Shown here piece after piece: positions 18,472 through 35,632 of a stretch of DNA of 64,000 nt. Each line of letters starts with the position of its first letter. Within the stretch, counting starts at the first letter, position 1. The position numbers were made by a program, and so were the translations under genes. The notes beneath the pieces were generated by a model. The model did no database searches. It saw only the letters and a list, made by a program, of their open reading frames with translations, and was not told the DNA's origin. Source of the DNA: Gaetbulibacter sp. 4G1 (lineage in GTDB: Bacteria > Bacteroidota > Bacteroidia > Flavobacteriales > Flavobacteriaceae). The stretch lies in assembly GCF_002741945.1 (NCBI RefSeq), contig NZ_MDVN01000009.1:62001-126000 (forward strand). Direction: 5' to 3'.

Positions 18472-20421
18472 TTATTCAGTTTGATTAGATAATATTATTT
18501 CTTTAACCTTAATAAAATCTTCTGAACTTTTATACCTACCATCTTGATTTCTAGTAGCGATTTCTATAGCCTTATTAAGATCATCATTAGATATATTTTT
18601 TCTTTCCTTAACTATCCTGAATAATTCATAATCTTCAATCCCTTCTTTTAATAATTCCCATCGAATAGATGATATTGGTCCTTTCTTACCTGGATAAATA
18701 TAATAATCATCACCTTGATTGTGCCTAAATACTGGGTTCTTAAAAGGGTCTGCTGTCCAGTTATTATATGACCATCTCAAATACCCATCGGTATTATATT
18801 TTAAAGCTAGCCACGGTATCAATTGGGATTCAATTGCTGGCGAATATGTTAACGCATTAGGATGAGCAGGTTCTGCACACAAATAAAAAGTTGTTCGTCT
18901 ATTATTGCTTTTTCTGCTTTCAATAGTAGGTAAAACAGATGTAACGGTATCTTTCTCTAAAGGTTGCCCTGGAAAAAACATATATGATATAGACAGGTTT
19001 TTTGCATATTCGCCATCTTCAGGATGTCCAGCAATAACAATTTTATCTAAAAATTCAGGAGCAGCATTTTTAATAATATTTTGTAAAATTCGCATGTCTT
19101 TTTCAACTTTCTCATCAAAACCTAAAAAAGTACGTTTAATTAAATCTTTGGCAGACAAATGCTCTTTGAAACTTATAAGGAACTTTGTCCAAATATCTTT
19201 ATACGTTGCGTCATGTATACTTAATTCTAAACTTTTAACCGCATTAGATTTTTTATCAAAATAATACAATTTTTGTTTAGTTTCTTTAAATGGTGCCATA
19301 GAAAAAGCATTAATAGCTTCATCAATTCCTATTTGTGTAGCCATACTCACATATCTGTCAAAAACATCATAATCAAATTCCCATTCTCCTTTTTCATTTA
19401 AAGTCCATTGTACCATACTACGATATCCAAAAGCGATTTGTGAACGTGTTGAATTGCTTATCCAAGGTTTAAGCCAAGGCTCGTGTGTTATAGTTGTTGC
19501 CAAATTCTTCCCTCCTCTTGATGCATAGTCTTTTAAATATTTAGAAATCATCTCCCAATGTGACTCAGACCAATGCTCTAAATTATAATAATCAGCAATA
19601 GCACTAGGGTTTAACCATAAATCTAAATGAAACTTAAAGTCTTTCGGTTCTGGCAATTCTTCTTTTTGAACATTTAATCTTACCTTATATACAACATCAT
19701 TATATGGTTTAGAACTAATTGTAATATTACCTTCGTATACTCCTGAAGCAGTGCTTTTAGGCACCTTAAAAGTTATCCAAACAGGTTGTGCTCTATAAGC
19801 AGGAATGTTAATTGATTTTAATTCTAACAAAGGATCTCCAACAATGTTTGGAGCCATATTTCCTGAAACTCCTTCTCCTATGATGGTCTCCAACTTTGGG
19901 GACCAATCATACTCACTTCTAGCTCGTTGTATAGGAACATATTTAACATATCTTATTTGAAAATTTTCTTTGCTAATTACTTTTCCATTAGAAGCTTTTA
20001 AATTGCTAATATTTATCTTGACTTCAGAAATATCTTTTTTTGAACCTAATGCTATTTGCGCCGATATTTGTTCGTTTTTAATCGCAGTGAGTTCTAATAC
20101 ACTTGCTTCAGGTAGGTTTGTAATTTGAAAATCTTTTAGTGCTTCGTTTTCTTTTAATTCATCCTCAGAAAATTTGCGCGGAAACCTTGGAACCCTTATT
20201 AAAGATGATGTTTCAAAATTACCAGTTGGCACCCATATATTTAAACTATCTGATAAGAAAACCTCATCTACATTTAAATTCAACCATTCTGAAGTTGTTT
20301 CAATATTATCTAAACTTATTGTTTCTTTTTTCCTTTGTACATTTTCATTATCAATGCATCCAAAATTTAAGATCATTAAAATTATTAAAATCATTCTAAT
20401 ACAGTAAAAAAAGTTTTTCAT
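18472..20421 (-). CDS. GH123/DUF4091-like lipoprotein
   Basis: The 649-residue product has a lipoprotein signal (lipobox NFGC, Cys22). It has the same architecture as the catalytic part of the neighbouring 979-residue protein but lacks the GEVED and sorting domains. Shared landmarks are FHLDLWLNP (264-272), the Asp436-Glu437 pair in LGFDEKVEK, DGYLRWSYNNW and LLKEGIEDYELFRI. The adjacent acids fit the GH123 catalytic arrangement, so an exo-acting hexosaminidase-like activity is possible but unproven. It is separated from the larger paralogue by 113 bp. Its upstream region is the decayed eda tail described separately, so its present promoter lies in recombined DNA. Confidence 0.72.
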   Translation of the reverse strand: MKNFFYCIRMILIILMILNFGCIDNENVQRKKETISLDNIETTSEWLNLNVDEVFLSDSLNIWVPTGNFETSSLIRVPRFPRKFSEDELKENEALKDFQITNLPEASVLELTAIKNEQISAQIALGSKKDISEVKINISNLKASNGKVISKENFQIRYVKYVPIQRARSEYDWSPKLETIIGEGVSGNMAPNIVGDPLLELKSINIPAYRAQPVWITFKVPKSTASGVYEGNITISSKPYNDVVYKVRLNVQKEELPEPKDFKFHLDLWLNPSAIADYYNLEHWSESHWEMISKYLKDYASRGGKNLATTITHEPWLKPWISNSTRSQIAFGYRSMVQWTLNEKGEWEFDYDVFDRYVSMATQIGIDEAINAFSMAPFKETKQKLYYFDKKSNAVKSLELSIHDATYKDIWTKFLISFKEHLSAKDLIKRTFLGFDEKVEKDMRILQNIIKNAAPEFLDKIVIAGHPEDGEYAKNLSISYMFFPGQPLEKDTVTSVLPTIESRKSNNRRTTFYLCAEPAHPNALTYSPAIESQLIPWLALKYNTDGYLRWSYNNWTADPFKNPVFRHNQGDDYYIYPGKKGPISSIRWELLKEGIEDYELFRIVKERKNISNDDLNKAIEIATRNQDGRYKSSEDFIKVKEIILSNQTE

Positions 20422-20432
20422 TAACCCTGTTG

Positions 20433-20738
20433 TAAATTATTCTTTTCAAAAGAAGAGTTTTTAACTGAATTCTATATGTGCCATTTTTGGATAATGAGGG
20501 GGGTGTTTTGCATAAGCTTTAAAAAAATGAAATAATTATTAGGAATAAAACACTTTCCTTAATTACATTCAACCACGCTAGTTAAAATTTATTTTTTGTG
20601 TTAATTTTTATAAAAAAGTAGAGACTGAAGATGGACTGCTTTTCTAAGGCTTATTTATAGAATAGTTTTTCTAACTTCTTTTATATCTCTTTCAAGCTTA
20701 TTATAACCTTTATTTGCTATAAATATATATTTACTCAC
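20433..20738. repeat. Direct repeat copy A: eda 3' end plus flank (partner 33612-33843)
   Basis: This stretch matches the DNA at and beyond the 3' end of eda in the same orientation. Bases 20433-20488 match 33612-33667 with a handful of differences (TAAATTATTCTTTT, AAAAGAAGAGT, TTTAACT). Bases 20645-20722 match the eda C-terminus. About 100 extra bases lie in the middle of this copy. The two copies bracket polysaccharide locus 2. Confidence 0.85.
20655..20738 (-). pseudogene. Remnant of the C-terminus of a KDPG aldolase (eda) copy
   Basis: Reading the minus strand up to a TAA at 20655-20657 gives IANKGYNKLERDIKEVRKTIL. The intact eda ends IANKDYNKLEQDVKEALNIIKEVRKTVQ. The fragment keeps the frame, has lost seven codons between two KE-coding repeats, and has SK-I-I preceding residues that also match. 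No upstream part of the gene remains; the sulfatase terminator follows at 20750. It is therefore a truncated duplicate of the gene at 33739-34416. Confidence 0.85.
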
Positions 20739-20749
20739 ATATAAAAAGA

Positions 20750-20786
20750 AAATTCTCCTGTTCAAATAAATTGAATAGGAGAATTT
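20750..20786 (-). terminator. Rho-independent terminator after the sulfatase operon
   Basis: A 16-base stem (20750-20765, core AATTCTCCT, with 20771-20786, core AGGAGAATT) closes a 5-base loop with one wobble pair. On the minus strand it is followed by a T-rich run. It lies 50 bp past the sulfatase stop codon. Confidence 0.75.
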
Positions 20787-20835
20787 ACTAAAAAACTAAC
20801 TCAAAAAATATAAACTAAACCTTAATTTAAGTTTA

Positions 20836-22437
20836 CTATAACGTGTCTTTATACTTTCTCATATCTGGTAATGGTGCTTCAGAATAAGTAGAATCTATAA
20901 ATTTTGACGAAGCCTTCTTAAGAAAAACTAAGGCTCCTTCTAAATCTGGATATTTTTCTCTTAATATATCATACTCAGGATTAACAGCATGTTTACCCCA
21001 AATCCCTAACATTAATTTTAAATTATTATCATCTTCTGGATATTGCCCCTTATCGTCTGTTTTTGCAATCCACTTTTCTAATACGTCTGCGTACTCCATT
21101 AATACTTTATCATATTCAGGGTTTGCAGCAAGATTATTCAATTCAAAAGGATCCTTTTTTAGGTTGTATAATTCTTCAGATGGACGATCATCGGACATGA
21201 ATCGATCTTGTATAATATTTAATTTATTATCTGCATGTAATTGATGCATTGCTTTTACAAATTCAACTCCATCAAAATCCATATAAGTGGGTTGAGTATA
21301 TGGTCTATCGACTAAAAAGTTACGGATGTATTTATAGTCTTTCGAACGTACAGACCTTATACGGTCTATTGTAAAGTCACAACGATCGCGTGTTGAAATA
21401 ACATAGTCTCTTTTAAATGCATCATCAAATATGTTTTTTCCTTCCATGTAATTTGGTATCGAAATATTAGCTAAAGCCAAAGAGCTAATTCCAATATCTA
21501 ATCCACTTACCAAATCAATATTTGTAGTTTCTGGTCTAAGTTTTTTAATAGTCTTGGAGAAGTCTGCAATTATTAACGGTACATGCAAACCTCCATCATA
21601 TAAAAACTGTTTATTCCGTGTCATTCGCATACCATGATCTGAGAAAAAGAATACTATCGTGTTTTCTAGCAAATCATTATCTCTTAATTTCTTTATAATA
21701 CCTCCAACTTTTTCATCAGTTATTTGAATCGCATCTAAATGATTTGCATATTCCTCTATTATTGCAGGATGATAAGGTAAATAAGGGGGTAATACGATCT
21801 TTGATCTATCAACTGGTGTTTTTACTCTATCTTTAAATGTTGAAGAGAATATTTCTTTCCCTCCATACATTTGTATTTGTCCAAAGAAAGGCTCTTTTCC
21901 TTTTAAAGATGCTAAATCTAATCTTACTCCACTTTTACCATATAAAGGATGTAATTTATAATCTTGACTATATAAATCTCTACGGTTATAAACAAAATTA
22001 TAATCATCCTTACCATTATTGAATGTAAAGTATCCCTCTTTTTTAAATAGTTCTGGTATAGTTTCCAAGCTATCTGGTAAATATATAGCAGATTCTTTTG
22101 TTCTTGAACTATGATGATTATGTGTTCCTGTAGTGGTAGACATAACGCCAGTTATAATACTTGAACGACTTGCAGAACAAACTGGTGCAGGCATAAAAAC
22201 ATTAGTAAACAAAACACCATGTTGCGCTAAACTATCAATATTAGGTGTAGAAATAAGAGTTTCTCCATAACTGCTTAAAAGCGGAGCTGTATCTTCTAGA
22301 AAAATCCATAAAATATTAGGCTGTTTCTTTAAATCCTTTATCTCTTCTTTTTTGTTAGCACAAGAAGTAGTAATAAAAAGTAAAAGCAATAGACCTTTTA
22401 GAGCAAAATCTTTATAGGTTTTTAATTTTAGTATCAT
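20836..22437 (-). CDS. Formylglycine-dependent sulfatase lipoprotein
   Basis: This family S1 sulfatase removes sulfate esters from a polysaccharide. The 533-residue product has a lipobox (TTSC, Cys26). The catalytic cysteine, matured to formylglycine, is Cys87 in CSASRSSIITG, the C-x-A-x-R variant of the signature. The metal-binding N-terminal segment reads ILWIFLEDT, with Glu-Asp where many sulfatases have Asp-Asp. FFFSDHGMR supplies the second metal-site Asp-His pair, and the C-terminal ELYNLKKDPFELNNLA is typical. The maturase is not in the window. It is the last gene of the 26395-to-20836 run, 3 bp after the GH97 gene, so the sulfated target is probably an alpha-galactoside. The S1 subfamily cannot be assigned by eye. 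Confidence 0.92.
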   Translation of the reverse strand: MILKLKTYKDFALKGLLLLLFITTSCANKKEEIKDLKKQPNILWIFLEDTAPLLSSYGETLISTPNIDSLAQHGVLFTNVFMPAPVCSASRSSIITGVMSTTTGTHNHHSSRTKESAIYLPDSLETIPELFKKEGYFTFNNGKDDYNFVYNRRDLYSQDYKLHPLYGKSGVRLDLASLKGKEPFFGQIQMYGGKEIFSSTFKDRVKTPVDRSKIVLPPYLPYHPAIIEEYANHLDAIQITDEKVGGIIKKLRDNDLLENTIVFFFSDHGMRMTRNKQFLYDGGLHVPLIIADFSKTIKKLRPETTNIDLVSGLDIGISSLALANISIPNYMEGKNIFDDAFKRDYVISTRDRCDFTIDRIRSVRSKDYKYIRNFLVDRPYTQPTYMDFDGVEFVKAMHQLHADNKLNIIQDRFMSDDRPSEELYNLKKDPFELNNLAANPEYDKVLMEYADVLEKWIAKTDDKGQYPEDDNNLKLMLGIWGKHAVNPEYDILREKYPDLEGALVFLKKASSKFIDSTYSEAPLPDMRKYKDTL

Positions 22438-22440
22438 TAT

Positions 22441-24429
22441 TTAGTTATTAATTGAAATTATTGCAGACCAACCTCCTCCAGGTGCAAGTTGAGCTTCTAT
22501 AACATCCTTACTTGTTATTTGTTTAGTTTCTAGTTTATAATCACTGGCATATCTATCAGCATTAATACCGTCTTTAAATATTTGAACGGTATAATTCCCT
22601 TCTTCCAAAAAAGAAAAATCAATGCTTAAAGTTCTTTCATTTTGGTTATTCATCACTCCTACAAACCATTTATCTTCATTTTTTCTAGCTACTGCTAAAT
22701 AGGTTCCTATTTTAGCATGGAGCACTTGTGTTTCATCCCAAACTACTGGTATTTGCGCAATAAACTTTGTAGTTTCATCCTCTTTCATGTAGTTACTTGG
22801 CGTATCACATAACATTTGCAAAGGGCTTTCAAATAATGTGTACATGGCAACTTGATGTGCTCTTGTTCCCATACTCATTGGTCTGTTCCAATGTATTGCA
22901 AAATTTTTTTTTTGTGCATTTACCATAGAGCCAGGTGTATAATCCATAGGACCTGCTACCATCCTAATGAATGGTAAAGTAAGGTTATGTTCTGGTGTAA
23001 TATAATCTGCCCATTTATTATTTTCAGCACCTTTTACGCCTTCTCGTGTAAGTACATTAGGATACGTTCTTCTTAACCCAGCTGGTTTATACGACCCATG
23101 AAAATCTACTAATAATTCTCGATTGGCACACTCCCTTGCTACCCGTTCATAATAATTAACCATCCATTGATCATCACGTTGCATAAAATCTACTTTCAAA
23201 CCTACAGCCCCCCATGCCTTAAATGCATCTAAAGCTTCTATCAATTTTTGATCTAAAGAACTCCATGTTACCCATAAGATAACATCCACATTCTTAGACT
23301 TTCCGTAGTTTATTATGTCTTGAACATCAACTTCTGGCACAATATCTAGTACGTCTCCTAGCACGTACCAGCCTTCATCTAAAATAATGTATTCTATACC
23401 ATATTTAGAAGCGAAATCAATATAATATTTATATGTGTCAGTGTTAACTCCAGCCTTAAAATCTACATCATAGATATTATTGTAGTTCCACCAATCCCAA
23501 GCTACTTTCCCTGGTTTAATCCATGAGATATTTTCTATTTTACATGGTTCTGCTAATTGGTAACTCAATTGATTTGTAATTAGGTCAGCATCACTTTTTG
23601 CGATAGCAATTATACGCCAAGGGAAACTTCGCTTCCCTGCTGTTCTAGCAATAAAATCTGCTGGCTTAGACACTCTAATATCTCTGTCGTCTGTCCAACG
23701 CCTATTATCTACTTTCTGTTCTAAAGCATAGGGTGGAAATTTTGCCTGTAAAGTGTTTTCTTCCCCTCCGGTTAACCACATTCCTGGATAATCTAAAAGT
23801 GCTGTTTCTGAAATAAGTAATCTAGTTTTATTTGCAGTTACTAATGTGGGCAAGCTACATAAATCGTTAGTAGAAAGTGTATCTAATTTACCAAACTCAT
23901 ATAACCTTTCATTATGTGATTGAAACTCTTTCTCTCTTGGAAAATATATCTGATTGTCTCCTACAAAATTAAAAACCGCCGACTCATCAACTACTATAAT
24001 GTCATTTTTGAGGCTTGTTTTGAAACGATATGCTATACCATTATCATAAACCCTAAAAATTACGGCATATTTTCCTTTAAAAGATAATAATAATTCATTG
24101 AAATTATCCCTTATAAACTTTGATTTAACCCTAAGTTCTGGCTCTAATACTTGATTAACAAATTGTCTTTTGGTTTTAATTACTTTTGGTTTTTTTCCTA
24201 AAACAATATTATCATCGATTGTTAGTGATAATGTTGATTCGTTCATAACCAAGGTATCATTTACTAAAATAGCATATTTAATTTCTTCATCTATTGTAAT
24301 AATTAGCTTAACATTTTTTTCTGGCGAAGTAATTGTATACTGTTGTGCAGTTAATAAAGATGGAAATGTAAAAAAGCATATACCAAGAGCGTATAATATT
24401 TTTTGTATCAAAATGTTTTTTATTTTCAT
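22441..24429 (-). CDS. Glycoside hydrolase family 97, probably retaining alpha-galactosidase
   Basis: GH97 enzymes hydrolyse alpha-glucosides or alpha-galactosides. The 662-residue product has a signal peptide ending near TAQQ (27-30), the N-terminal beta-sandwich (YTITSPEKNVKL), and the barrel with VAWDWWNYNN and YIILDEGWY. The segment GLKVDFMQRDD puts an aspartate at residue 414, where the retaining galactosidase branch has its nucleophile. Inverting SusB-type enzymes lack this Asp. NVLTREGVKGAEN carries candidate acid/base glutamates 463 and 469. The combination favours a retaining alpha-galactosidase, as in Bacteroides BT1871. The substrate is inferred. It lies between the sulfatase and the GH36-like gene. 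Confidence 0.88.
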   Translation of the reverse strand: MKIKNILIQKILYALGICFFTFPSLLTAQQYTITSPEKNVKLIITIDEEIKYAILVNDTLVMNESTLSLTIDDNIVLGKKPKVIKTKRQFVNQVLEPELRVKSKFIRDNFNELLLSFKGKYAVIFRVYDNGIAYRFKTSLKNDIIVVDESAVFNFVGDNQIYFPREKEFQSHNERLYEFGKLDTLSTNDLCSLPTLVTANKTRLLISETALLDYPGMWLTGGEENTLQAKFPPYALEQKVDNRRWTDDRDIRVSKPADFIARTAGKRSFPWRIIAIAKSDADLITNQLSYQLAEPCKIENISWIKPGKVAWDWWNYNNIYDVDFKAGVNTDTYKYYIDFASKYGIEYIILDEGWYVLGDVLDIVPEVDVQDIINYGKSKNVDVILWVTWSSLDQKLIEALDAFKAWGAVGLKVDFMQRDDQWMVNYYERVARECANRELLVDFHGSYKPAGLRRTYPNVLTREGVKGAENNKWADYITPEHNLTLPFIRMVAGPMDYTPGSMVNAQKKNFAIHWNRPMSMGTRAHQVAMYTLFESPLQMLCDTPSNYMKEDETTKFIAQIPVVWDETQVLHAKIGTYLAVARKNEDKWFVGVMNNQNERTLSIDFSFLEEGNYTVQIFKDGINADRYASDYKLETKQITSKDVIEAQLAPGGGWSAIISINN

Positions 24430-24544
24430 GTGTTTATATTTATTGTTTTTTAACTGCCTCCATATAATTCGCTATTAATCATTTCCATGAGTTATAAAGC
24501 TTTTTAACATGCTCATTTTATAAAATTAGTTCCTTGTACAATTA

Positions 24545-26395
24545 TTAGTTATTAATTTTTTCAAAAGAAATTAAGCCTGAGATAGGCACTTCAAATAAAT
24601 TTGCACCCGTTTTAATTTTAGTTTCTCCATTACTTATTAAGCTTCCTTGACAATCTTTAATTTTATACTTATAAACTGCATCAATTTGCTTAGAAATTAA
24701 AACCACCTCATTAGACATTTTTGCATTTATAACATCTAATTTTTCAAGTGCTTCATCATCTATTAAAAAAGATGAAGTTCCATACAGTACTGTAATTTCT
24801 TTATTACCAAACCTGCCCGAAATTTTTGGGTAATTGGATTGAGGGTTTGAGGGCAAAAACTCACCGTCTAAAAAAACATTTCTATTCTTCAACCAATAAT
24901 CGGTATAAAAACGAATCATATTAAATTGTTCTTGTGGTATATCAGCTAATCTTACTGAAATTTGAGGTACTGAAAACATCACATTTAGTAATTGAAATGC
25001 TGCTACTTCAACAGATTCTCTATAATGCCACATAAGCATATCTGCGTGTACCGCAGTATTACCACTTAGCAGTCTTAAATCGGTAGTCCCGACCCTATTA
25101 ATTAAAGCTACATTAGGGCAGTCTGATGCTCGTAACATATTACCATATTTACGCATAGCAGGGCCTGTATAGGGTTGCCTAAATTCAATCATAATATCAG
25201 GTTTTACTTCTCTTAAAGATGTCATTAAATCTGTCATTAAACGATCTGTAGCATCATTAATAGAAGCGTAATCACGTCCTTCATCTGCTATCAATTTAGT
25301 GTCCTTTCCTGCTTTAAATCTTCCTAAAAAATCTAATTTAAAACCGTCTAAACCCCATTCATTTACAGCTTTTATATATGTATTAATTATAAATTCGCGT
25401 ACTTCAGGAAATCTTGGGTCTACAATATAAGTTCCTTGGCTTTCCCAATAATCTAGAAACTTGCCTTTCATCTGCTTATAAGCTTGAGATTTTTCTCCTA
25501 CAAATGGTACAGCATACCATAAGATAAATTTCATATCTAAATCATGTACAGCACTTACAAATGCCTTCATTTCTGGAATTCGTTCAGGATTCCAGTCTCC
25601 TGTGTATGCATAGCCTCTACTACTATCTAAAGTTTGCCAACCATCATCTACTATAATAGATTCAAACCCCATAGACTTGGCTAGCTTACATTCTTTAACT
25701 AAGGCGTCTTTTGTTACATTCTGGTGATAACTATACCAACTAGAGTATACTGGCAATTTTGCAGCCTCTGGCACTGTAGATGGGGCATACAAATCATAAG
25801 CTGCCCACCAAGAAGCTACTTCTGTTAGAGATTTTGAAAAAGGTATAGACCTAGTATCTAACCTAAACTCTATTTGATAAGTTTTTAGTTTTTTATGCGC
25901 CTCTGTAAAAAGCTGTATTTCATTATACATCATCCCATTTTCTTCCTTGACAGAAGTACTTGTAACAACTGTACTTAGAGCTTCTGAAACCGCAAAAGTT
26001 TGCCTATTAACATCATCATACCCAAATAGAGAAATTACTGGTGCGTGCCTAGAGAGCATTGATTTTACTTTTGCTGGCCCCCAATCTGGAGTTATGGTTT
26101 TATCTAAATACGCACTGCTACTCCAATATCCTGCAATATTATTTGAAGGTACTGCCCATTTTAAAGAAAGTTTTGGTGGTGTTGCACCTTGGGCATGGTT
26201 TAAAGTTATAGTCGCAATTTCTAAACCATCTTCTATTCTATTCGTTTTCCAATCGAGTGAAAACCCATTTAAATCACCTACAACTTCTATATCAAATCCA
26301 TTAATATTGTAGGTCTGATTTTGTGTTTGCGAAAATAGATCTTCATTTAAAACATTTATTAACAAAAAGGTAATTAATAAAATTTTTAATTTCAT
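24545..26395 (-). CDS. GH36-like (clan GH-D) alpha-galactosidase
   Basis: The 616-residue product has a short signal peptide (ending about FSQ, 21-23), a beta-sandwich domain and a TIM barrel. IIVDDGWQTL and DWNPERIPEMKAFV are typical of melibiase-like enzymes. The nucleophile is Asp355 in GFKLDFLGRF. The acid/base is Asp425 in LRASDCPN. Both catalytic residues are therefore present, and the enzyme should be a retaining exo-alpha-galactosidase or a close relative. It lacks an obvious lipobox, so it is probably periplasmic. A 115-bp gap separates it from GH97, and a terminator hairpin lies between it and susD. Confidence 0.85.
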   Translation of the reverse strand: MKLKILLITFLLINVLNEDLFSQTQNQTYNINGFDIEVVGDLNGFSLDWKTNRIEDGLEIATITLNHAQGATPPKLSLKWAVPSNNIAGYWSSSAYLDKTITPDWGPAKVKSMLSRHAPVISLFGYDDVNRQTFAVSEALSTVVTSTSVKEENGMMYNEIQLFTEAHKKLKTYQIEFRLDTRSIPFSKSLTEVASWWAAYDLYAPSTVPEAAKLPVYSSWYSYHQNVTKDALVKECKLAKSMGFESIIVDDGWQTLDSSRGYAYTGDWNPERIPEMKAFVSAVHDLDMKFILWYAVPFVGEKSQAYKQMKGKFLDYWESQGTYIVDPRFPEVREFIINTYIKAVNEWGLDGFKLDFLGRFKAGKDTKLIADEGRDYASINDATDRLMTDLMTSLREVKPDIMIEFRQPYTGPAMRKYGNMLRASDCPNVALINRVGTTDLRLLSGNTAVHADMLMWHYRESVEVAAFQLLNVMFSVPQISVRLADIPQEQFNMIRFYTDYWLKNRNVFLDGEFLPSNPQSNYPKISGRFGNKEITVLYGTSSFLIDDEALEKLDVINAKMSNEVVLISKQIDAVYKYKIKDCQGSLISNGETKIKTGANLFEVPISGLISFEKINN

Positions 26396-26467
26396 AGTAA
26401 AATAATATAAATGTTAATGGAAAAAACTAAAAAAATAGATGGTAATATTTAAATAAAACAAGAAACA

Positions 26468-26488
26468 CTCACCTAATAAATAGGTGAG
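26468..26488 (-). terminator. Hairpin after the locus 2 susD
   Basis: CTCACCTA (26468-26475) pairs perfectly with TAGGTGAG (26481-26488) around ATAAA. On the minus strand a T-rich stretch follows. It sits 40 bp beyond the susD stop, so it may reduce read-through from susC/susD into the GH36-GH97-sulfatase genes. Confidence 0.6.
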
Positions 26489-26527
26489 ATTTCTTTATTA
26501 AATTATTCAATAATCTTGAGTAAAGAA

Positions 26528-28021
26528 TTAATATCCAGGATTTTGCTCAATATTAGGATTTGCATCAATTTCTGCTTGCGGAATAGGTATTAAAACTCTA
26601 AAATCTTCAGCAGAAGCAACTGGATGTACAGGGTGATTCCTTTTAGCACTCACAAATTTTCCGTGTCTAATTAAGTCTTCTCTACGTTTTCCTTCAAAAT
26701 AAAACTCCCATCCTCTTTCATCAAGTATGGCATCTTTCAATGCTTGTTTGTCAGCAAAATCAGATAAAGCAATTGGTGTAGCCTTTGCTCTATTTCTTAC
26801 TTCATTAATTAAATCAATAGACGTTTGTGTTGGCCCATTCAATTCATTTAGAGCTTCCGCTTTTGATAATAAAATATCGGCATATCTTACTACTCTGAAA
26901 TCATGTCCACTTCTCCATGCATCCATCTCTGGGTCTGGCCAGTATTTAAATGCGCTATTTTTATTAGCTTCTTGAGTAATAAGCTCATTACTTGTATTGA
27001 TATACTCATTTATAATTTGCTTTTTACGATCATCGTTAGGGTCAAAAGAGTTAAAAAAATGATCATATACTCTATTCTTAGTACCAGAAATTGATTGATT
27101 AGGCAATTTTACATCATCACCATTAACAAAGGATTTATAATTACTTTCTGGATATGAATGAGACATGATTGCATTTGCTGTACTACTAATTAATGGCGTT
27201 ACAGTATAAGAAAAAATTGTTTCCTTTTCAATCGTTTCAAATGCAGGTTTAAATAAATCCCGGTGTGGATTATCCCCATCTGTATAAAGGCTATACTGAC
27301 CCAAACCATCTATTAAATCTGAATACTCAACAACTTTACCCCAATTTTTAGTATTTAAATAATGTTTAGCTAAGACACCGTATGCTGCTCCTTTAGTAGC
27401 TCTACCAAATTCCTCTGCCTCTACTGGCAAATCTATTGCAGCTTCGGCTAATTCTGTTTCAATAAAATTAAGTATTTGCTCGTTTGATGCTCTACCTAAA
27501 TTAGGTTCATCACTACTAGAGGTTCTTAAAGGTACAGGGCCAAATAAATTATACATGAAAGAATACATTGTAGCTCTCATAAACCTAACTTCAGCAGTCC
27601 ATTGCTTTTTTTGATCATCTGTTAATTCAGAATTATCAACAACCTCTAAAAAGGCATTGGCATTTCGAATTGCTTGGTATGGCTGACTCCAAAAGCCATT
27701 CCTAAACCATGAAGGGTTTTGTGAATCCCAATTCCAATTTAAAACAAATGCAGTAACACGACTTAAACCGCCACGCTCATTCCATAAATGATCACCACTA
27801 AAATCTGAAAAGTAAATAAAGTCTCTTCCTGTAGCTCCATTTAACTGAAACTCAGCATATACTCCATTTAAAAGCCCTTCCATAAAACCTTCTGATGCAG
27901 GGCCATTAGTTGGAGCAAATTCTCCAAAAATTTCTGTTTTTAACGGATCTTCACAATGAGTTAATGTTAACCCTAGAAAAACCATTAAGCTTATTTTTAT
28001 TATTTTATAAAATCGTTTCAT
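26528..28021 (-). CDS. SusD/RagB-type glycan-binding lipoprotein, locus 2
   Basis: This surface lipoprotein is the partner of the SusC encoded upstream. The 497-residue product has a lipobox (LTHC, Cys about residue 23), an N-terminal SusD region with FMRATMYSFMYNLFGPVPL, the signature RYADILLSKAEALN, the C-terminal block DERGWEFYFEGKRREDLIRHG and the family-typical end IEQNPGY. The length is normal. It starts 32 bp after the susC stop. The likely substrate is the sulfated alpha-galactoside suggested by the downstream enzymes. Confidence 0.93.
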   Translation of the reverse strand: MKRFYKIIKISLMVFLGLTLTHCEDPLKTEIFGEFAPTNGPASEGFMEGLLNGVYAEFQLNGATGRDFIYFSDFSGDHLWNERGGLSRVTAFVLNWNWDSQNPSWFRNGFWSQPYQAIRNANAFLEVVDNSELTDDQKKQWTAEVRFMRATMYSFMYNLFGPVPLRTSSSDEPNLGRASNEQILNFIETELAEAAIDLPVEAEEFGRATKGAAYGVLAKHYLNTKNWGKVVEYSDLIDGLGQYSLYTDGDNPHRDLFKPAFETIEKETIFSYTVTPLISSTANAIMSHSYPESNYKSFVNGDDVKLPNQSISGTKNRVYDHFFNSFDPNDDRKKQIINEYINTSNELITQEANKNSAFKYWPDPEMDAWRSGHDFRVVRYADILLSKAEALNELNGPTQTSIDLINEVRNRAKATPIALSDFADKQALKDAILDERGWEFYFEGKRREDLIRHGKFVSAKRNHPVHPVASAEDFRVLIPIPQAEIDANPNIEQNPGY

Positions 28022-28053
28022 TGTTTTATATTTTTTACATTAAAAAGTTTAAA

Positions 28054-31000
28054 TTAAAATCCAATATTAACTCCAAACAAAATTGTTCTAGTTGTAGGAT
28101 AACTATTAAAATCCTGTCTCGAATTACCTGAACCTGCTAAGTCTGGATCATAACCTAAATAATCTGTAGAAATTGCTAAGTTTTGCCCAGAAACATAGGC
28201 ATTCAAACTTCTAATAAACTTATTGTCTTTTAAATCGAAATTGTATTTAAAAGTAATGTTCTTAAGCCTTACAAAAGAAGCATCTTGAATTACAAATTCA
28301 TTGGTAAGATCTCCTCCATAACTTGATGGATCAACAAAAGAAGGCCAAGAATTAGTTGGATTACTGGTGGTCCACCTATTTAAAATAGGCTCTGAGAATC
28401 TATTTCTTGAATTATTAAACGGGAAATACGTACTGGCCAATTGGCTATTGAATAACTCTACACCATGTACACCTTCAATAAATACGGACAATTCAAATCC
28501 TTTATACTTAAACACATTATTAAAACCCCATGTAAAGTCAGGATATGGATTTCCTAAAATGACTCTATCATCACCATCAATAACACCATCGTTATTTTGA
28601 TCTATCCATTTAGGTTGTCCAGGAACAGCATCAGGTTGTGCTGACCCTGTTGGGTCTTCTCCTGTTTGCCATATTCCAGAATTGGCTAAACCATAATAAG
28701 AAAAGGCTGCTTCTCCTTCTCTATTAATTACAGATGCTGCTGTATCAGAATTATTAATAATCTCACGTCCACCTAAATCTGTAATCTCATTTTTATTAGT
28801 TGTTAAATTCAAATCACTTTCCCAACTAAAATCTTTTCCAGTTATATTTCTAGAATTCAACGATATCTCAAGTCCACTATTAGTAATCTCACTATTTGCT
28901 AGATTAACCCATCTTCCACTAAACCCTGTTTGTAATGGTACTGGTTCAAAAAATAATAAATCCTTCGTCTTTTTATTATAAACATCAATAGAGCCACTAA
29001 TCCTATTATTAAATAAGCCAAAATCTAAACCAAAATTAACCTGCTCTGTGGTTTCCCATGTTAAATCAGAATTTGCAATACGAGCAGGAGTTAAGCCTGC
29101 CACAAGTTGATTGTTAAATACTGCAGGGTCACCAGTTACAAAAGTTGCTAAACTTGCAGATGAAGCTACATTTGAATTTCCTATTTGTCCCCAACCTAAA
29201 CGAGCTTTTAAATTGTTTACAAAATCTAAAGATTCCATGAAGCTTTCCTCTGTAATACGATACCCTAAAGAAAAAGATGGGAATGTACCATATTTATTTC
29301 CTTCAGTAAATCTAGAAGACCCATCTATTCTTACAGAAGCTGTTACTAAAAACTTATCTTTATAGGAATAATTCACCCTTGATAGATATGATAATAATGC
29401 ACTTTTCCTTCTAAAGCTCCCTAAGCCATTAAACTCCTGATTACCAGCTCCTAAATCATCTGTACCAACTTCATCACCAATAAAACCTCTAGCATCTCCA
29501 GTAAATAACTCATAATTAAACTTTTGATATGTGTATCCCGCTAATGCTGCTACAGTATGATCTCCAAAAGTGTTATCATAATTTAAAAGGGCATCAACCA
29601 CATAGTTCGTATTTTTTGATGTTAAAATATTAGCTACACCTCCTGCTTGTGAACCAACAACTGTTTGTCTAGAACGATAAGAATCTTTTTTAGCGTTAAT
29701 AACATCAGTATTCAACGATAATGATGCTTTCAAATTATTAGCTATTTCATAAGAAGTTTTTAAGTTAACCAGTGTGCGGTGCGTTCTTCCTTGAATATCT
29801 ATCCCATTAATAAGGTTATATGGGTTATCTAAATCTATAACATCTGGTTGAAAATAAGACCCATCTCCATTAAATACAGGTGCTGTACTTGGTAAAAAAA
29901 CTGCCGTACTAATAACACCAGCGTCAAAATTACCTCCACTATCTCCGTGTGCTGTAATATCATCAGATGTAAAAGAAGTATTAATATTTACATCAGCTGT
30001 AAACTTATCTTTTTTATACCCCCAATTAAGTCGCCCACCATATCTTTCAAAACCAGAGCCTTTAAGAACACCGTCTTGATTGGTATAATTAAATGATGCA
30101 AAGTATTTAGTATCTGATGATCCTCCGGAAAAGGAAATATTGTGCTGTTGCATGATAGCATCTTCAAAAATTTCATCTTGCCAATCTGTATTCACTGATG
30201 GATTTGAAAGCTCAGCTAATAGAGTTCCTCCTTGCTGTTGTAGTATATCCCCAACGTGCTGAATATATCCATTAGAATCTAATAAATCAAGACGATTAGC
30301 TACTTTCTGAAACCCTATACTTGTATTATAATCTATTTTTATAACACCTTCTTTACCTGTTTTAGTTGTAATCAATATTACCCCGTTTGCACCACGAGAG
30401 CCATATATAGCAGTTGCAGATGCATCTTTTAAAACTTGAATAGATTCGATATCTTGTGGGTTGATTGAATTTAATGGGTTGGGAGGTGATGTATTACCAG
30501 GAATATTTGCTCCACTGCTAGTTATTAATGAGCTATTATCTATAGGCATTCCATCAATAACATATAAAGGGTCATTTCCTAAATTTAATGAAGAGTTCCC
30601 TCTTATTCTAATAGAAACACCTCCACCAGGTTGTCCACTAGTTTGAGAAATACGTACACCTGCTACTTTCCCTTGCATCATTTGATCTACAGATGTTTGT
30701 GTACTATTCTCTAGATCGTCTCCTCCTATAGAAGCCACAGCTCCAGTTAAATCTTTCTTTCTTTGAGTTCCATACCCCACTACAACAATCTCGTCTAAGC
30801 TTGCTGCATCTTCAAGTAATAATATGGTAATCTCTGTTTGGTTACCAATAATAATCTCTTTAGTTGCAAAACCTATATATGAAACAACTAAAATAGCATT
30901 GTTGTCTGCAACATCGATTGTAAATTTTCCGTCAAAGTCAGATTGAGTTCCATTGGTTGTTCCTTTTTCAATAATATTAGCACCAGGTAGTGGTTGTCCA

Positions 31001-31425
31001 TTATTATCTGTTATAGTTCCAGTAAGCTTAATTTGCTGTTTATCAACAGTTATCTCCGGTTCTTTAACAACCACTATTTTATTATTATCAGTAAAAGTAA
31101 AATTAAAATCGCCATTAGATAGGCTTTGCTTCAACAACTTATTTGCTCTAATCTTTCCCTTTTTAAGATAAACTTTAGGGGTGTTTTTAAAAAGATCTTC
31201 TTGATAGATAAACGTATAATCTGTTTGTTGCCTTAGTAAGTCAAAAATTTCATCAATAGTTACAATCTTATCTTCATCAATTACAATTTTAGTATTCTGC
31301 GAAAAAACATCGTTCGAAGAAAAACTAAAAACTGTTGTACAAAACAAGAGTATAAAAGTTCTCATAATAAATTGTAGAATTTTTTTCTTAAAAAAGAAAA
31401 AATTGTTAGTAAATTTAATTTCCAT
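28054..31425 (-). CDS. SusC-type TonB-dependent transducer with STN domain, locus 2
   Basis: This outer-membrane transporter also signals. After a signal sequence (core MRTFILLFCTTVFSF, with Met21 at 31365 as an alternative start) comes an STN domain (about 45-125: VTIDEIFDLLRQQTDYTFIYQ, then NKIVVVKEP). This domain contacts the periplasmic part of a FecR anti-sigma factor. A carboxypeptidase-regulatory-like domain follows (KLTGTITDNNGQPLPGAN), then the plug (VVVGYGTQRKKDLTGAV, SIRIRGNSSLNLGNDPLYVIDG) and barrel, ending GVNIGF. The length of 1123 residues is about 120 more than the other two SusC proteins here, which matches the extra domain. Upstream are the cognate FecR and ECF sigma genes. 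Confidence 0.94.
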   Translation of the reverse strand: MEIKFTNNFFFFKKKILQFIMRTFILLFCTTVFSFSSNDVFSQNTKIVIDEDKIVTIDEIFDLLRQQTDYTFIYQEDLFKNTPKVYLKKGKIRANKLLKQSLSNGDFNFTFTDNNKIVVVKEPEITVDKQQIKLTGTITDNNGQPLPGANIIEKGTTNGTQSDFDGKFTIDVADNNAILVVSYIGFATKEIIIGNQTEITILLLEDAASLDEIVVVGYGTQRKKDLTGAVASIGGDDLENSTQTSVDQMMQGKVAGVRISQTSGQPGGGVSIRIRGNSSLNLGNDPLYVIDGMPIDNSSLITSSGANIPGNTSPPNPLNSINPQDIESIQVLKDASATAIYGSRGANGVILITTKTGKEGVIKIDYNTSIGFQKVANRLDLLDSNGYIQHVGDILQQQGGTLLAELSNPSVNTDWQDEIFEDAIMQQHNISFSGGSSDTKYFASFNYTNQDGVLKGSGFERYGGRLNWGYKKDKFTADVNINTSFTSDDITAHGDSGGNFDAGVISTAVFLPSTAPVFNGDGSYFQPDVIDLDNPYNLINGIDIQGRTHRTLVNLKTSYEIANNLKASLSLNTDVINAKKDSYRSRQTVVGSQAGGVANILTSKNTNYVVDALLNYDNTFGDHTVAALAGYTYQKFNYELFTGDARGFIGDEVGTDDLGAGNQEFNGLGSFRRKSALLSYLSRVNYSYKDKFLVTASVRIDGSSRFTEGNKYGTFPSFSLGYRITEESFMESLDFVNNLKARLGWGQIGNSNVASSASLATFVTGDPAVFNNQLVAGLTPARIANSDLTWETTEQVNFGLDFGLFNNRISGSIDVYNKKTKDLLFFEPVPLQTGFSGRWVNLANSEITNSGLEISLNSRNITGKDFSWESDLNLTTNKNEITDLGGREIINNSDTAASVINREGEAAFSYYGLANSGIWQTGEDPTGSAQPDAVPGQPKWIDQNNDGVIDGDDRVILGNPYPDFTWGFNNVFKYKGFELSVFIEGVHGVELFNSQLASTYFPFNNSRNRFSEPILNRWTTSNPTNSWPSFVDPSSYGGDLTNEFVIQDASFVRLKNITFKYNFDLKDNKFIRSLNAYVSGQNLAISTDYLGYDPDLAGSGNSRQDFNSYPTTRTILFGVNIGF

Positions 31426-31527
31426 AAATTTGCGTGTTAATTAGTTAAACATTTTAGTTAATTAATAATCTAAAGGGGGATAAAGCGTGTTACTGTGGAG
31501 GTACTTAGACTTTGTTCCCTTTCTCTT

Positions 31528-32667
31528 TTATTTTATTGTAATTTTTTTATTTGTTATACCATAGGCTGTTATAAAATTAGTTTTCTTGATTAAATCTAAA
31601 ATTTCTTCTATTTTTTCATTTTTGCTTATTACACCATTAAACTTAACATCTTCAAGTTTCTTATCTTCAAAAATAACTTCAACATCATACCAACGAGATA
31701 GAACAACCATTATATCTTTTAATGTTTTGCTTTTAAAACTAAAGACCCCTGTTTTCCATGATGTTTCACCATATACATCAACTGTATTAACAGTTATCTG
31801 ATTACTTCCAAGACTTATTTTTGATTGCTGATTTGGAGTTAAACTTTGTTTTGAAACGGAATTACTAACAGTTACTCTACCTTCTACCAGTGTAGTATAG
31901 ATAGTACTTTCGTCCTTATAAGCCTTAATATTAAATTCTGTACCCAGCACTTCTACTTCTTGGTTCTTATTTAATACTATAAATTTTGAGCCATTATTTT
32001 CAAAACTAGACGTTACATCAAAATATGCCTCTCCATATACTAACTCTACTTCACGCGTTTTACCAGCTATAAAATTTACAGGATATTTTAATTGTGATTC
32101 TGAATTTAACCATACTTCTGTCCCATCAGATAATTTTATAGCATACTGACCTCCTCTAGGAATAGTTAGGTAATTGTATACTATTTCTTGTTTCGAATTA
32201 TTATTTTTATTATAAGTTAATTTTTCGCCATTACTGTTTAAGTTACCTGCAACATACGTTTCTCCCTTTTCGAGAACAATACTAGATCCGTCTTCTAATG
32301 TAAGAGTTGCTTTATCTGTTCCTATTAAAATAAGTTCATCATTATCAACAATAACGGGATCACTAACTTGAATATCTTCTTTATTAAAAATAAAATTAAG
32401 AGAAATTAGTACAAGTATTGAAGCAGCGACTACAGCATATTTCCAATAATTATTCTTTTTTGTATTCTCTGCTATATTTATATTTTTTTGAATAGATAAC
32501 CATCCTTTTTCAATATCAATATGGTTTATATTTTTTTTGTAATTCTTCTTTACAGAAATAAAATAATCCTTATGAGAATCTGCTTCATTATACCATTTTG
32601 AAAAGATAATTTCTTCCTCTGGAGTAAGCTTATTATTAAGTCTTTTTATAATTAATTTAAATTCCAT
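31528..32667 (-). CDS. FecR-type anti-sigma factor
   Basis: This is an inner-membrane anti-sigma factor that holds or releases the adjacent ECF sigma factor in response to the STN domain of the TonB-dependent transducer. Residues 1-75 are the cytoplasmic part (EEEIIFSKWYNEADSHKDYF). A membrane helix follows (YAVVAASILVLISLNFIF, about 77-94). The periplasmic FecR domain contains LTIPRGGQYAIKLSDGTEVWLNSESQLKYP and VELVYGEAYFDV. The C-terminus (LDLIKKTNFITAYGITNKKITIK) is the part that meets the STN domain. It lies between the sigma gene and the transducer, in the usual order. Confidence 0.94.
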   Translation of the reverse strand: MEFKLIIKRLNNKLTPEEEIIFSKWYNEADSHKDYFISVKKNYKKNINHIDIEKGWLSIQKNINIAENTKKNNYWKYAVVAASILVLISLNFIFNKEDIQVSDPVIVDNDELILIGTDKATLTLEDGSSIVLEKGETYVAGNLNSNGEKLTYNKNNNSKQEIVYNYLTIPRGGQYAIKLSDGTEVWLNSESQLKYPVNFIAGKTREVELVYGEAYFDVTSSFENNGSKFIVLNKNQEVEVLGTEFNIKAYKDESTIYTTLVEGRVTVSNSVSKQSLTPNQQSKISLGSNQITVNTVDVYGETSWKTGVFSFKSKTLKDIMVVLSRWYDVEVIFEDKKLEDVKFNGVISKNEKIEEILDLIKKTNFITAYGITNKKITIK

Positions 32668-32793
32668 TTAACACTTGTTTGCGCTCTTTTAATTATTAGA
32701 CAATTAAAAATATATTTTGGGTGACAAAAAAAGAAGAAATATTTAAATAAAGTACAAGAAAAATACTAACCGCCTAATAATAAGGGCATTTTA

Positions 32794-33348
32794 TTAATGA
32801 ATTTGCAATAAAATTAAGATAGAAGTTACTAACTCTGTAATTCTTAATTTGGCTCTCTTAAGTTGGGTTTTAACTGTATTTATAGAAACCCCTAATTCTT
32901 CTGCTATTTCTGAATATTTGTAGTTATGTAAAAATTTTAGCTTTACAATCTGTTGCATCTTATCAGGCAGTGTATCTACAATTTTTAAAATTTGATGATA
33001 TACTATTTTTTTATCTTCATCTGTAACTGAATCAAAAACATGCTCGGTAATAAGGTTTATATTAAACTCTAAAAACTCGTAATCATCTGTGATTTTAATT
33101 GACTTTAAAAAATTAAAACATCTATTACGAACCATTGCAAGTAGATATCCCTTTAATGACGATTTAATTTTTATTTTATCTGCATTTTCCCAAATATAAA
33201 TAAACACTTCCTGTACAATATCTTCACTTGAATCTAAATCAAAAAGATAACCATTAGCATAAACTACTAATTCCTTATAGTGTTTATCAAAAAAGTTTTT
33301 AAAAACTCTACGGTTTTGTTTTCTTATTTCTTCTAGAATAAGATTCAT
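32794..33348 (-). CDS. ECF sigma-70 factor (FecI-like)
   Basis: This 184-residue alternative sigma factor should direct RNA polymerase to locus 2 when the transducer is loaded with substrate. Region 2 shows as DLDSSEDIVQEVFIYIWENADKI, and region 4 as LPDKMQQIVKLKFLHNYKYSEIAEELGVSINTVKTQLKRAK, a typical helix-turn-helix. No region 3 is present, as expected for ECF factors. The FecR gene follows after 126 bp. A TAGATTTG box on the minus strand at 33379-33386 could be its own -7 element. Confidence 0.93.
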   Translation of the reverse strand: MNLILEEIRKQNRRVFKNFFDKHYKELVVYANGYLFDLDSSEDIVQEVFIYIWENADKIKIKSSLKGYLLAMVRNRCFNFLKSIKITDDYEFLEFNINLITEHVFDSVTDEDKKIVYHQILKIVDTLPDKMQQIVKLKFLHNYKYSEIAEELGVSINTVKTQLKRAKLRITELVTSILILLQIH

Positions 33349-33738
33349 TTATATTGTATAAATGTGTTAGGATTCAAGCAAATCTATTAAAAAGAAAGTA
33401 ATAATTGATAATTTTAAAGAAACTTATAGCTAGAGCTAAAAAGGTGCGAATGAAGTATTCTTAATCATACAGCTCCCAAAATAAATATCACTATTTCCTG
33501 CTAAAAAATAAGGAAATAATAGAAATTGGTTAGTGATTTAATAATTAATTGACATTTAAAATAGCTAGAAATGAGAGTAAATGATAATAATTAATTTCAT
33601 ACTATCTTTTATAAATTATTCTTTTTAAAAGAAGAGTCTTTAACTAAATTTTATATGCAGCATTTTTAAAAATAAGAAAACTATAAAACATTTTATTTGA
33701 TAATTAAAGGAAGATACTGAAATGGCTCTAAGGCTTAT
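33349..33738. other. 390-bp gap between eda and the sigma gene, with repeat copy B
   Basis: The right part (33612 onward) is the flank portion of the direct repeat shared with 20433-20738. The left part is AT-rich and should contain the sigma-factor promoter. I see no open reading frame or strong terminator here. Confidence 0.6.
33379..33386 (-). promoter_or_regulatory. Possible -7 box (TAGATTTG) of the ECF sigma gene
   Basis: On the minus strand this octamer fits the Bacteroidota -7 consensus TAnnTTTG and lies 30 bp before the sigma-factor start codon. No clear TTTG is found 19 bp upstream, so the call is weak. Confidence 0.3.
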
Positions 33739-33843
33739 TTATTGAACAGTTTTTCTAACTTCTTTAATTATATTTAATGCTTCTTTTACATCTTGTTCAA
33801 GCTTATTATAATCTTTATTTGCTATAATATCTTTAGATATCAA
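33612..33843. repeat. Direct repeat copy B: intact eda 3' end plus flank (partner 20433-20738)
   Basis: This is the intact partner of copy A. Bases 33612-33667 match 20433-20488 closely, and 33727-33765 match 20645-20683 with two differences (CTAAGGCTTATTTAT, then AGTTTTTCTAACTTCTTT). Here the coding part belongs to a full-length eda gene. Confidence 0.85.
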
Positions 33844-34416
33844 TTTAGAACCCATTCCAACACATGTAACCCCGGCATCAAACCAAGCTTTTAAGTTTTC
33901 TTGAGTTGGAGACACTCCACCTGTTGGCATAATAGAAGTCCAAGGTTGTGGGCCTCTCACTCCTTTAACAAACTTTGGCCCGTAAATATCTCCAGGGAAT
34001 AATTTCACTATTTCACATCCAAGTTCTTCCGCTTTAGCAATTTCTGTCAACGATCCGCACCCTGGTGACCATAATACTTTTCTTCTATTACATACTATGG
34101 CAATATCTTCTCTTAGTACTGGTGTTACTATAAAGTTTGCTCCTAATGCCATATATAAGGATGCTGCAGCTGCATCTGTTACAGAACCTACTCCCATAAT
34201 CATTCCTGGTAACTCTGCAATTGCATACTTGGTTAGTTCTCCAAAAACTTCATGAGCAAAATCTCCTCGAGCAGTAAACTCCATTAAGCGAGCACCTCCA
34301 TTATAGCAAGCTTTTAGTATTTTTTTACTAAGCTCTAAATCGTTATTAAAAAACAAAGGAATCATTCCAGTTTCTTTCATTGCATTAGCAACTTCTATTC
34401 TTGTAAATTGTGCCAT
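33739..34416 (-). CDS. eda: 2-keto-3-deoxy-6-phosphogluconate (KDPG) aldolase
   Basis: This enzyme cleaves KDPG to pyruvate and glyceraldehyde-3-phosphate, the last step of the alginate and uronate route. The 225-residue product is a class I aldolase TIM barrel. The Schiff-base lysine is in GCEIVKLFPGDIYGPKFVKG. The base glutamate lies in RLMEFTARGD. IMPTGGVSPTQENLKAWFDAG binds the phosphate end. It starts 22 bp after the kdgK stop, so the two form an operon. A fragment of a second copy of its 3' end lies at 20655-20738. Confidence 0.95.
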   Translation of the reverse strand: MAQFTRIEVANAMKETGMIPLFFNNDLELSKKILKACYNGGARLMEFTARGDFAHEVFGELTKYAIAELPGMIMGVGSVTDAAAASLYMALGANFIVTPVLREDIAIVCNRRKVLWSPGCGSLTEIAKAEELGCEIVKLFPGDIYGPKFVKGVRGPQPWTSIMPTGGVSPTQENLKAWFDAGVTCVGMGSKLISKDIIANKDYNKLEQDVKEALNIIKEVRKTVQ

Positions 34417-34438
34417 TTTATATTGTTTTTATAATTGA

Positions 34439-35479
34439 TTAGCGCGCTACTCGACCAGAAGCATCACCCCCCATTAATTTTTCTACTTCTGAAACTGTCA
34501 CTAAGTTAGCATCTCCTTTAATAGTGTGTTTTAAGCACGATGCAGCTACAGCAAAATCTAAAGCATTTTGATCATCTTCTGGGTATGTTAGTAAGCCGTA
34601 TATTAAACCTCCCATAAAAGAATCTCCACCGCCAACTCGATCAACAATATCTGTGATTTGATATTGACGTGTTTCATACATTTTTTTACCGTCATACAAA
34701 ACACCTGCCCATGTATTATGAGATGCCGAAATAGAGCCTCTTAAAGTGGTTATTACTTTTTTAGCTCTTGGAAATTTATTCATCATCTGTTTACAAACAG
34801 ATAAAAAAGCTTCAGCTTTAACATCATGCCCATGCTTATGTACATCTAACCCTTCTGGGTGAATTCCAAAGTGTTTTTCAGCATCTTCTTCGTTTCCTAA
34901 AATAATATCGCAATATGAAGTCAATTCAGTCATAATAGCTTCTCTATCACCACCATAGTTCCAAAGTTTTGCCCTATAATTTAAATCGGTAGAAATCGTA
35001 ATTCCTTTTGCACTAGCTGCTTTTAGGGCTTCTAAACAAACATCAGCAGCGCCTTGTGATATTGCAGGAGTTATTCCTGTCCAATGAAACCATTCTACAC
35101 CTTCAAAAACAGTATCCCAATCTATCATTCCTTGCTCTATTTCTGCAATCGCAGAATGTGCTCTATCATAAACTACTTTACTTCCTCTTGAAACTGCTCC
35201 AGTCTCTAAAAAATAAATCCCCAAACGATCGCCTCCATAAACAATTTTATCTACTCCAACACCGCGTTTGCGCATTTCCATCATAGCACATTCACCAATA
35301 TCATTTTTTGGCAAACGTGTTACAAAATCTACAGACACTCCATAATTTGCTAAAGATACTGCAACATTAGATTCTCCTCCTCCATAAACAACATCAAAGT
35401 TATTAGCTTGTGAAAATCTTAAAAACCCTTGCGGAGCTAATCGTAACATGATTTCTCCAAACGTAACTACTTTACCCAT
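34439..35479 (-). CDS. kdgK: 2-keto-3-deoxygluconate kinase (PfkB family)
   Basis: This enzyme phosphorylates 2-keto-3-deoxygluconate to KDPG using ATP. The 346-residue product shows the PfkB signatures: the N-terminal GGGESNVAVSLANYG substrate segment and the C-terminal DRVGGGDSFMGGLIYGL with its catalytic aspartate and anion hole. It is the first gene of the kdgK-eda operon. It is transcribed away from the LacI-type regulator, with two identical palindromes in the 153-bp gap, so it is probably repressed by that regulator. Confidence 0.93.
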   Translation of the reverse strand: MGKVVTFGEIMLRLAPQGFLRFSQANNFDVVYGGGESNVAVSLANYGVSVDFVTRLPKNDIGECAMMEMRKRGVGVDKIVYGGDRLGIYFLETGAVSRGSKVVYDRAHSAIAEIEQGMIDWDTVFEGVEWFHWTGITPAISQGAADVCLEALKAASAKGITISTDLNYRAKLWNYGGDREAIMTELTSYCDIILGNEEDAEKHFGIHPEGLDVHKHGHDVKAEAFLSVCKQMMNKFPRAKKVITTLRGSISASHNTWAGVLYDGKKMYETRQYQITDIVDRVGGGDSFMGGLIYGLLTYPEDDQNALDFAVAASCLKHTIKGDANLVTVSEVEKLMGGDASGRVAR

Positions 35480-35512
35480 TTTTTTTAAATTTTTATTTAA
35501 GTTTATTGTTTT

Positions 35513-35532: not shown

Positions 35533-35572
35533 AAATTTAAAATAATATCAAAACCCTATTTTTTATTTGAAT

Positions 35573-35620: not shown

Positions 35621-35632
35621 ATATATAAAAAA

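Follow-up and report, generated by a model that had tools for sequence, protein, structure and literature searches.

A polysaccharide utilization locus between direct repeats of a putative eda-GH123 gene junction in Gaetbulibacter sp. 4G1

The genome of Gaetbulibacter sp. 4G1 (G000, 3.9 Mb) contains, in the stretch of 64,000 nucleotides C9:62001-126000 (contig NZ_MDVN01000009.1) that was analysed as a whole and is called here the window, a seven-gene locus flanked on both sides by copies of one and the same host sequence. Read from right to left and mostly on the minus strand, the window comprises an alginate-type cluster (alginate-lyase families, SDR, MFS and LacI), the sugar kinase gene kdgK, the aldolase gene eda, the seven-gene locus (locus 2), and a further locus (locus 1) that opens with a GH123 lipoprotein gene, designated GH123_lipo. 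Locus 2 consists, sigma gene first, of genes for an ECF sigma factor, FecR, SusC, SusD, a melibiase-type GH36-like enzyme, GH97 and a sulfatase. Its tandem SusC/SusD pair and its degradative enzymes qualify it as a polysaccharide utilization locus (PUL), and the Pfam families recognized in it comprise the plug and CarbopepD domains, SusD, GH97, melibiase-like, sulfatase, ECF sigma and FecR. Two other genomes are of particular importance for comparison, G003 from the same genus and G368 from another genus. The features on which the following discussion relies, numbered according to the window, are:

18472-20421, minus strand: GH123_lipo, the GH123 lipoprotein gene (Pfam GH123_cat, E 3e-84), presumably the original downstream neighbour of eda
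20433-20738, minus strand: left repeat copy, made of decayed last codons of eda (about 20655-20738), the eda 3' flank and the GH123_lipo upstream region
20497-20504, minus strand: ACCCCCCT element, beginning 83 nucleotides (nt) before the GH123_lipo start, found in two orthologues and not in the right copy
20750-20786, minus strand: hairpin AAATTCTCCT...AGGAGAATTT that follows the sulfatase gene, read by eye, at the left end of the presumably inserted module
20836-33348, minus strand: locus 2, seven genes assigned by Pfam, in an order matched in G003 (L063) and G368 (L090/L091)
33349-33431, minus strand: leader of the sigma gene, common to G003 (93% over 84 nt), and right limit of the blastn match to the G003 module
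33432-33594, no strand assigned: spacer of 163 nt between module and right repeat, the G003 match ending at 33431
33612-33843, minus strand: right repeat copy, in which the intact eda C-terminus is followed by the eda 3' flank and by what is left of the GH123_lipo leader (perhaps as far as ATGAAA at 33595-33600)
33739-34416, minus strand: eda, intact, encoding a KDPG/KHG aldolase (Pfam Aldolase, 3e-30)
34439-35479, minus strand: kdgK-like sugar kinase of the PfkB family (Pfam), which accompanies eda in 20 of the 20 other eda loci read at length

The stretches 20433-20738 and 33612-33843 are collinear copies in the same orientation, so that each end of the module is marked by a direct repeat of host DNA. 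Two blocks of similarity are distinguished, 20427-20488 with 33606-33667 (62 nt, 85.5% identity) and 20643-20722 with 33727-33827 (73% over 101 columns, with a gap of 21 nt among them), and a gapped local alignment unites both of them (20745-20403 with 33843-33576) with a score of 112.4, as compared with a mean of 35.3 and a maximum of 56.2 for 500 dinucleotide shuffles of the left copy. The first-pass annotation of this DNA had proposed that the 3' end of eda and its downstream flank recur as direct repeats, which is borne out, since the alignment score surpasses all 500 shuffles. The longest identical run within the alignment measures 18 nt. No third copy occurs in the whole genome, where the next match to the left copy reaches only E 0.024, and the right-hand query 33360-33740 finds, after the left copy, a next match of only E 0.004. 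Within the window, the only sequences that match another part of it at E<=1e-6 and are mostly noncoding on one side are the repeat blocks and one palindrome (36652-36691). A chance similarity between AT-rich stretches is ruled out by the shuffle scores, the genome-wide uniqueness and the self-matches of the window. The similarity may extend by a short step to an ATGAAA on each side (20416-20421, with the GH123 start codon, and 33595-33600), beyond which none was detected (295 of 300 shuffles were as good), and the alignment shows that the right repeat does not extend into the GH123 coding sequence. The copies had been described, in addition, as enclosing exactly locus 2; the seven genes do lie between them, together with the extra 163 nt at 33432-33594, a spacer for which one weak match was found, in G046 (33424-33496, 78%, E 4e-6).

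The two copies differ in their state of preservation. The left one encodes IANKGYNKLERDIKEVRKTIL followed by a stop codon, and upstream of this eda tail only about eleven bases precede the hairpin located behind the sulfatase gene (read by eye). The tail carries a 21-nt in-frame deletion corresponding to seven residues, and these residues are kept in 29 of the 29 other eda tails printed and compared by eye (31 other loci were given, two of which, L024 and L061, were not parsed), from which it follows that the left copy is the decayed one. The view that this tail, without any eda sequence upstream, is a decayed relic is thus supported.

The novel aspect of the present analysis is that the noncoding half of the left repeat is recognized as the upstream region of GH123_lipo as well, the first-pass annotation having taken it for the downstream flank of eda. 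Relatives of GH123_lipo occur in Flagellimonas pacifica (67%), G368 (57%) and G416 (52%), and the motif ACCCCCC starts at position -83 in the left copy and at -81 in the orthologues of F. pacifica and G368 (for G368, counted from the start aligned with residue 1; the distance from an earlier ATG is -75). The motif, located at 20497-20504 in the window and at L089:9920-9926 and L098:1411-1417, was found in 3 of the 562 upstream regions of the fetched loci, solely those of GH123_lipo and of these two orthologues, and is a candidate regulator or promoter site. When the left region from -100 to -1 was compared with 555 upstream regions, regions from four G000 loci being left out of the comparison, the best two were likewise those of the F. 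pacifica and G368 orthologues (scores of 26-27 versus 21.5 for the next). Beside the intact eda, the right copy retains the leader up to about the start codon, without the C-rich element, and both copies present the eda tail, the eda 3' flank and the leader in identical order. Judged from these alignments, the repeat most plausibly represents the junction from eda to GH123, including the upstream region proper to GH123, which sharpens the earlier description of it as an eda flank. Since both copies contain one eda-GH123 junction, the former adjacency of the two genes can be inferred from G000 alone: in the simplest history, eda would once have run straight into GH123_lipo, and locus 2 now stands between the duplicated copies of their junction.

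With respect to its content, locus 2 behaves as a discrete and apparently self-contained module, because its seven genes recur at other sites in two genomes without flanking repeats. All seven genes are found in identical order in G003 (L063:7064-19482), with 93% nucleotide identity over 24816-33431 of the window and 76% over 20891-24203, and again in G368 (L090/L091), with 72-76% nucleotide identity. Both of these copies sit away from eda, and a comparison of their flanks of 2-4 kb revealed no repeats at E<=0.01. In G001 and G002 no close relatives of the locus 2 SusC (E<=1e-250) or of its GH36 were found, and both of these genes are single-copy in the G000 genome. The left flank of the G003 module has no match in G000 and the gene adjoining the module on the right has its match at another place, at about 75%, and these flank comparisons rule out a simple empty site in G000 at the location occupied by the module in G003. 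At about position 24950, inside the GH36 gene, the identity to G003 falls from 93-95% to about 76%, and over 24200-24950 G000 and G368 remain closer to each other than either is to G003. The GH97-sulfatase end of the module seems to have been replaced in G003, since G003 is the odd one of the three around this breakpoint.

The origin of locus 2 from outside the lineage, which the first-pass annotation had assumed, is not supported by its composition. The GC content and the GC content by codon position (GC3) of locus 2 equal those of its neighbours, and its tetranucleotide distances to the neighbouring regions (0.108 and 0.116) lie within those between the halves of the neighbours themselves (0.14 and 0.18), so that the foreign-looking composition that might have been expected was not found in this comparison. 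Divergence at 4-fold degenerate sites, measured on open reading frames (ORFs) of at least 120 amino acids whose partner shares 35% of 4-mers (9 ORFs for G003, 9 for G002 and 8 for G368), points in the same direction for most of the module: sigma, FecR, SusC and SusD together differ from G003 at 160 of 773 sites (0.207), the G003 background being 253/1021 = 0.248 over nine ORFs in the next 14 kb of the same contig (single ORFs, 0.09-0.36). Compared with G368, each of the seven genes yields 0.62-0.72, for a background of 479/848 = 0.565. Judged by deviating composition or discordant divergence, no recent horizontal acquisition from a distant source was detected. The module would thus be about as old in the lineage as the split from G003, or would derive from an equally old, unsampled lineage. 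The left and right repeats, in turn, show 27 differences in 209 aligned columns, which puts their divergence at 0.129 or more, and the duplication is probably younger than the G003 split because the repeats differ less than the background (0.129 versus 0.248). On this dating, the relocation of a resident module, or its import from a close relative, appears likelier than capture from afar.

The explanation that we consider probable, with somewhat more confidence than doubt, is that locus 2 was placed, in the G000 lineage, into an existing eda-GH123 junction which was duplicated by the event. Locus 2 would have been inserted where eda directly preceded the GH123 lipoprotein gene, and about 220-300 bp of the junction would have been duplicated, to give an intact eda with a leader remnant on one side and an eda-tail remnant with an intact GH123 gene on the other. 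No site-specific recombinase would be required. The likeliest route would be a recombination of the junction with DNA carrying locus 2 joined to a junction copy, by a homologous crossover at the eda/leader end, the second joint being illegitimate or the donor circular. Both copies would subsequently have decayed, the left eda tail by 21 nt and the right leader by some 75 nt including ACCCCCC. Three routes would leave the layout observed, namely a single crossover with a circle, a one-sided recombination with an illegitimate joint, and a tandem duplication followed by deletion; recombination through the junction is favoured, and the former adjacency, the direction of the event and its timing all belong to what we infer. 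No clear internal breakpoint was found in eda, the last 113 nt of which are at most 74% similar to those of any of 22 relatives, a low similarity that could be due to fast decay or to another origin. No transposase or integrase family was matched by the 29 of the 44 window ORFs (>=100 aa) that were scanned. Among plasmids, 85 records had a SusC match, all below 60% identity, which still leaves a circular donor possible. An acquisition free of transposase and integrase, as originally proposed, thus stands as far as the placement in a duplicated junction and the ORFs scanned are concerned; acquisition from outside, and the Campbell-type crossover that was also suggested, find no such support.

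Several results weigh against this reconstruction. ACCCCCC is absent upstream of the G416 relative and upstream of the second copy in F. pacifica, and once ACCCCCC is removed, 7 of the 555 upstream regions score at least as high as that of F. pacifica with the left leader, and 48 of the 555 with the right leader. Pairwise shuffles of the leader block against the orthologues looked better (0-1 of 500), the comparison with 555 regions being the stricter one; conservation of the leader block itself in the orthologues was therefore rejected, as not significant without ACCCCCC against other upstream regions. Since the leader is unrecognizable without this motif, its assignment to GH123 would rest on its position between the ACCCCCC element and the start codon. 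The dating depends on 209 ungapped columns, and conversion between the repeats would also have lowered their divergence. At the other end of the module, the sulfatase (57/113 = 0.50) and GH97 (95/157 = 0.60) differ from G003 far above the background, which would weaken a native origin for that end even if it is ascribed to the replacement in G003. The uninterrupted junction, too, was looked for: no GH123 match at E<=1e-5 was found in any of 20 eda loci read at length (5 from the same genus and 15 from the family, of 60 eda matches outside G000), and the surroundings of the GH123_lipo relatives in F. pacifica (10 kb on each side), G368 and G416 (about 1.5 kb on each side) contained no eda. As to the proteins of locus 2, these 20 eda loci yielded only distant paralogues (25-39% identity), in 5 of 22 stretches. 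No donor combining eda, leader and locus 2 was found, nor does it occur in the contexts of G003 and G368. The first-pass annotation had counted on relatives in which eda runs into the GH123 gene without locus 2; none was found, yet GH123_lipo is so rare, with relatives at E<=1e-100 in only 2 of 396 family genomes besides G000, that this absence probably counts little.

Other histories could have led to the same arrangement. A tandem duplication may have put a second eda-GH123 pair beside locus 2, a deletion then leaving the eda tail and the GH123 leader, with locus 2 relocated within the genome; this course is possible, if doubtful. It accords with the divergence of most of locus 2 from G003, which resembles the background and fits a resident module, with a composition like that of the neighbours and with SusC and GH36 being single-copy in the genome, and tandem duplication promoted by transformation is known in pneumococcus, according to the part of the source available (PMC3784515). 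It requires, however, two joints, at about codon 199 of eda and near the GH123 start codon, and an earlier linkage of locus 2 to the region, of which no trace was found. That two complete eda genes once enclosed locus 2, the left one decaying to a tail without any insertion into a junction, is quite improbable. G002 and G003 do possess two close eda genes each, but their second eda adjoins a kdgK of its own; moreover, the copies in G000 share a noncoding flank at about 85% which has no counterpart next to eda in the fetched relatives, nor in eight other whole genomes, and the eda tail almost adjoins the sulfatase hairpin.

An integrative element that used the eda 3' end as attachment site, the repeats being attL and attR and the integrase having been lost, is given still less credit. 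Integration into the 3' ends of genes leaves the target whole on one side and shifts a 3' piece of it to the opposite side, a layout like the one seen here, but the repeat continues for at least 100 nt past the stop codon into the leader of the neighbour, its longest identical run of 18 nt offers no identical att core, and the ORFs scanned include no integrase family. Practically no weight is attached to the shared blocks being a regulatory or terminator element that arose independently on both sides: their best-conserved stretch contains a TTCTTTTnAAAAGAA palindrome (by eye), but coding as well as noncoding blocks recur with order and orientation kept, in only two places of the genome, and the shared eda codons refute this origin in practice.

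Some additional observations concern the surroundings of the locus. The eda 3' side differs among members of the genus; in G002 (L069:10788-12448), the region immediately past eda contains a Fic-domain gene and, adjoining it, some 200-350 nt of sequence that G003 and G368 also possess. At 4-fold sites, eda differs from five same-genus eda genes at 0.59-0.83, whereas a comparison of the MFS gene of the cluster with G002 gives 0.198, less than the 0.355 of the G002 background; in this respect, the alginate-type cluster (33739-38858) looks mosaic. The intergenic region between kdgK and LacI (35512-35640) contains the palindrome TTTGCTTAAACGTTTAAGCAAA in two copies, perhaps LacI operators. Farther away, a single open frame (53658-55541, listed with a TTG start) fuses a shikimate-kinase-like domain to a 6-phosphogluconate dehydrogenase.

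There is as yet no settled account of how whole PULs travel in Bacteroidota when no mobile element is visible, and the present site offers the junctions, an internal record of the gene order that preceded the insertion, and an approximate date with respect to a split of species. That the integrase-free relocation of PULs into gene junctions is a general and datable way of shuffling resident loci in flavobacteria is, for the time being, an unlikely proposition; if true, junction duplications decaying in a complementary manner could be used as insertion scars and scanned for across Bacteroidota.

Among the known systems, Campbell-type integration by a single crossover yields an insert framed by direct repeats of its target. 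Locus 2 resembles it in this respect and differs from it in that no circular donor is known. Genomic islands and integrative and conjugative elements integrated in the 3' ends of genes displace a 3' piece of the gene that they target to their far end. Unlike these, the G000 site shows no integrase among the ORFs scanned and no identical core, and its repeat reaches well into noncoding DNA. In a literature search, no title or abstract named a PUL insertion linked to eda, which does not prove that none is in print. In Bacteroides ovatus/xylanisolvens, as far as the accessible part of the source goes, PULs vary between close relatives mostly without signatures of mobile DNA, and an exchange of PULs among gut Bacteroides by homologous recombination at neighbouring genes has been proposed (PMC8845570). 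Both features recall the G000 site. In the Bacteroides case, however, as described in that part, two flanking nodes common to donor and recipient enclose what is exchanged, whereas in G000 copies of a single junction stand on either side of the module, which occupies a site not seen elsewhere (PMC8845570). Homology-facilitated illegitimate recombination with displaced gene 3' ends has been proposed, in the sections available, for the effector-immunity arrays of the type VI secretion system of Vibrio cholerae (PMC5361080). There too, a module enters behind a conserved anchor and pushes the 3' end of the former gene downstream, and no integrase is known; but like modules displace one another in V. 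cholerae, whereas in G000 a catabolic operon has been added and eda is intact (PMC5361080, same sections). For the alginate loci of Flagellimonas, vertical inheritance is stressed in the portion of the work available (PMC12323373). Set against these systems, the G000 site appears to illustrate, clearly and in a good state of preservation, a type of genome rearrangement that is already known.

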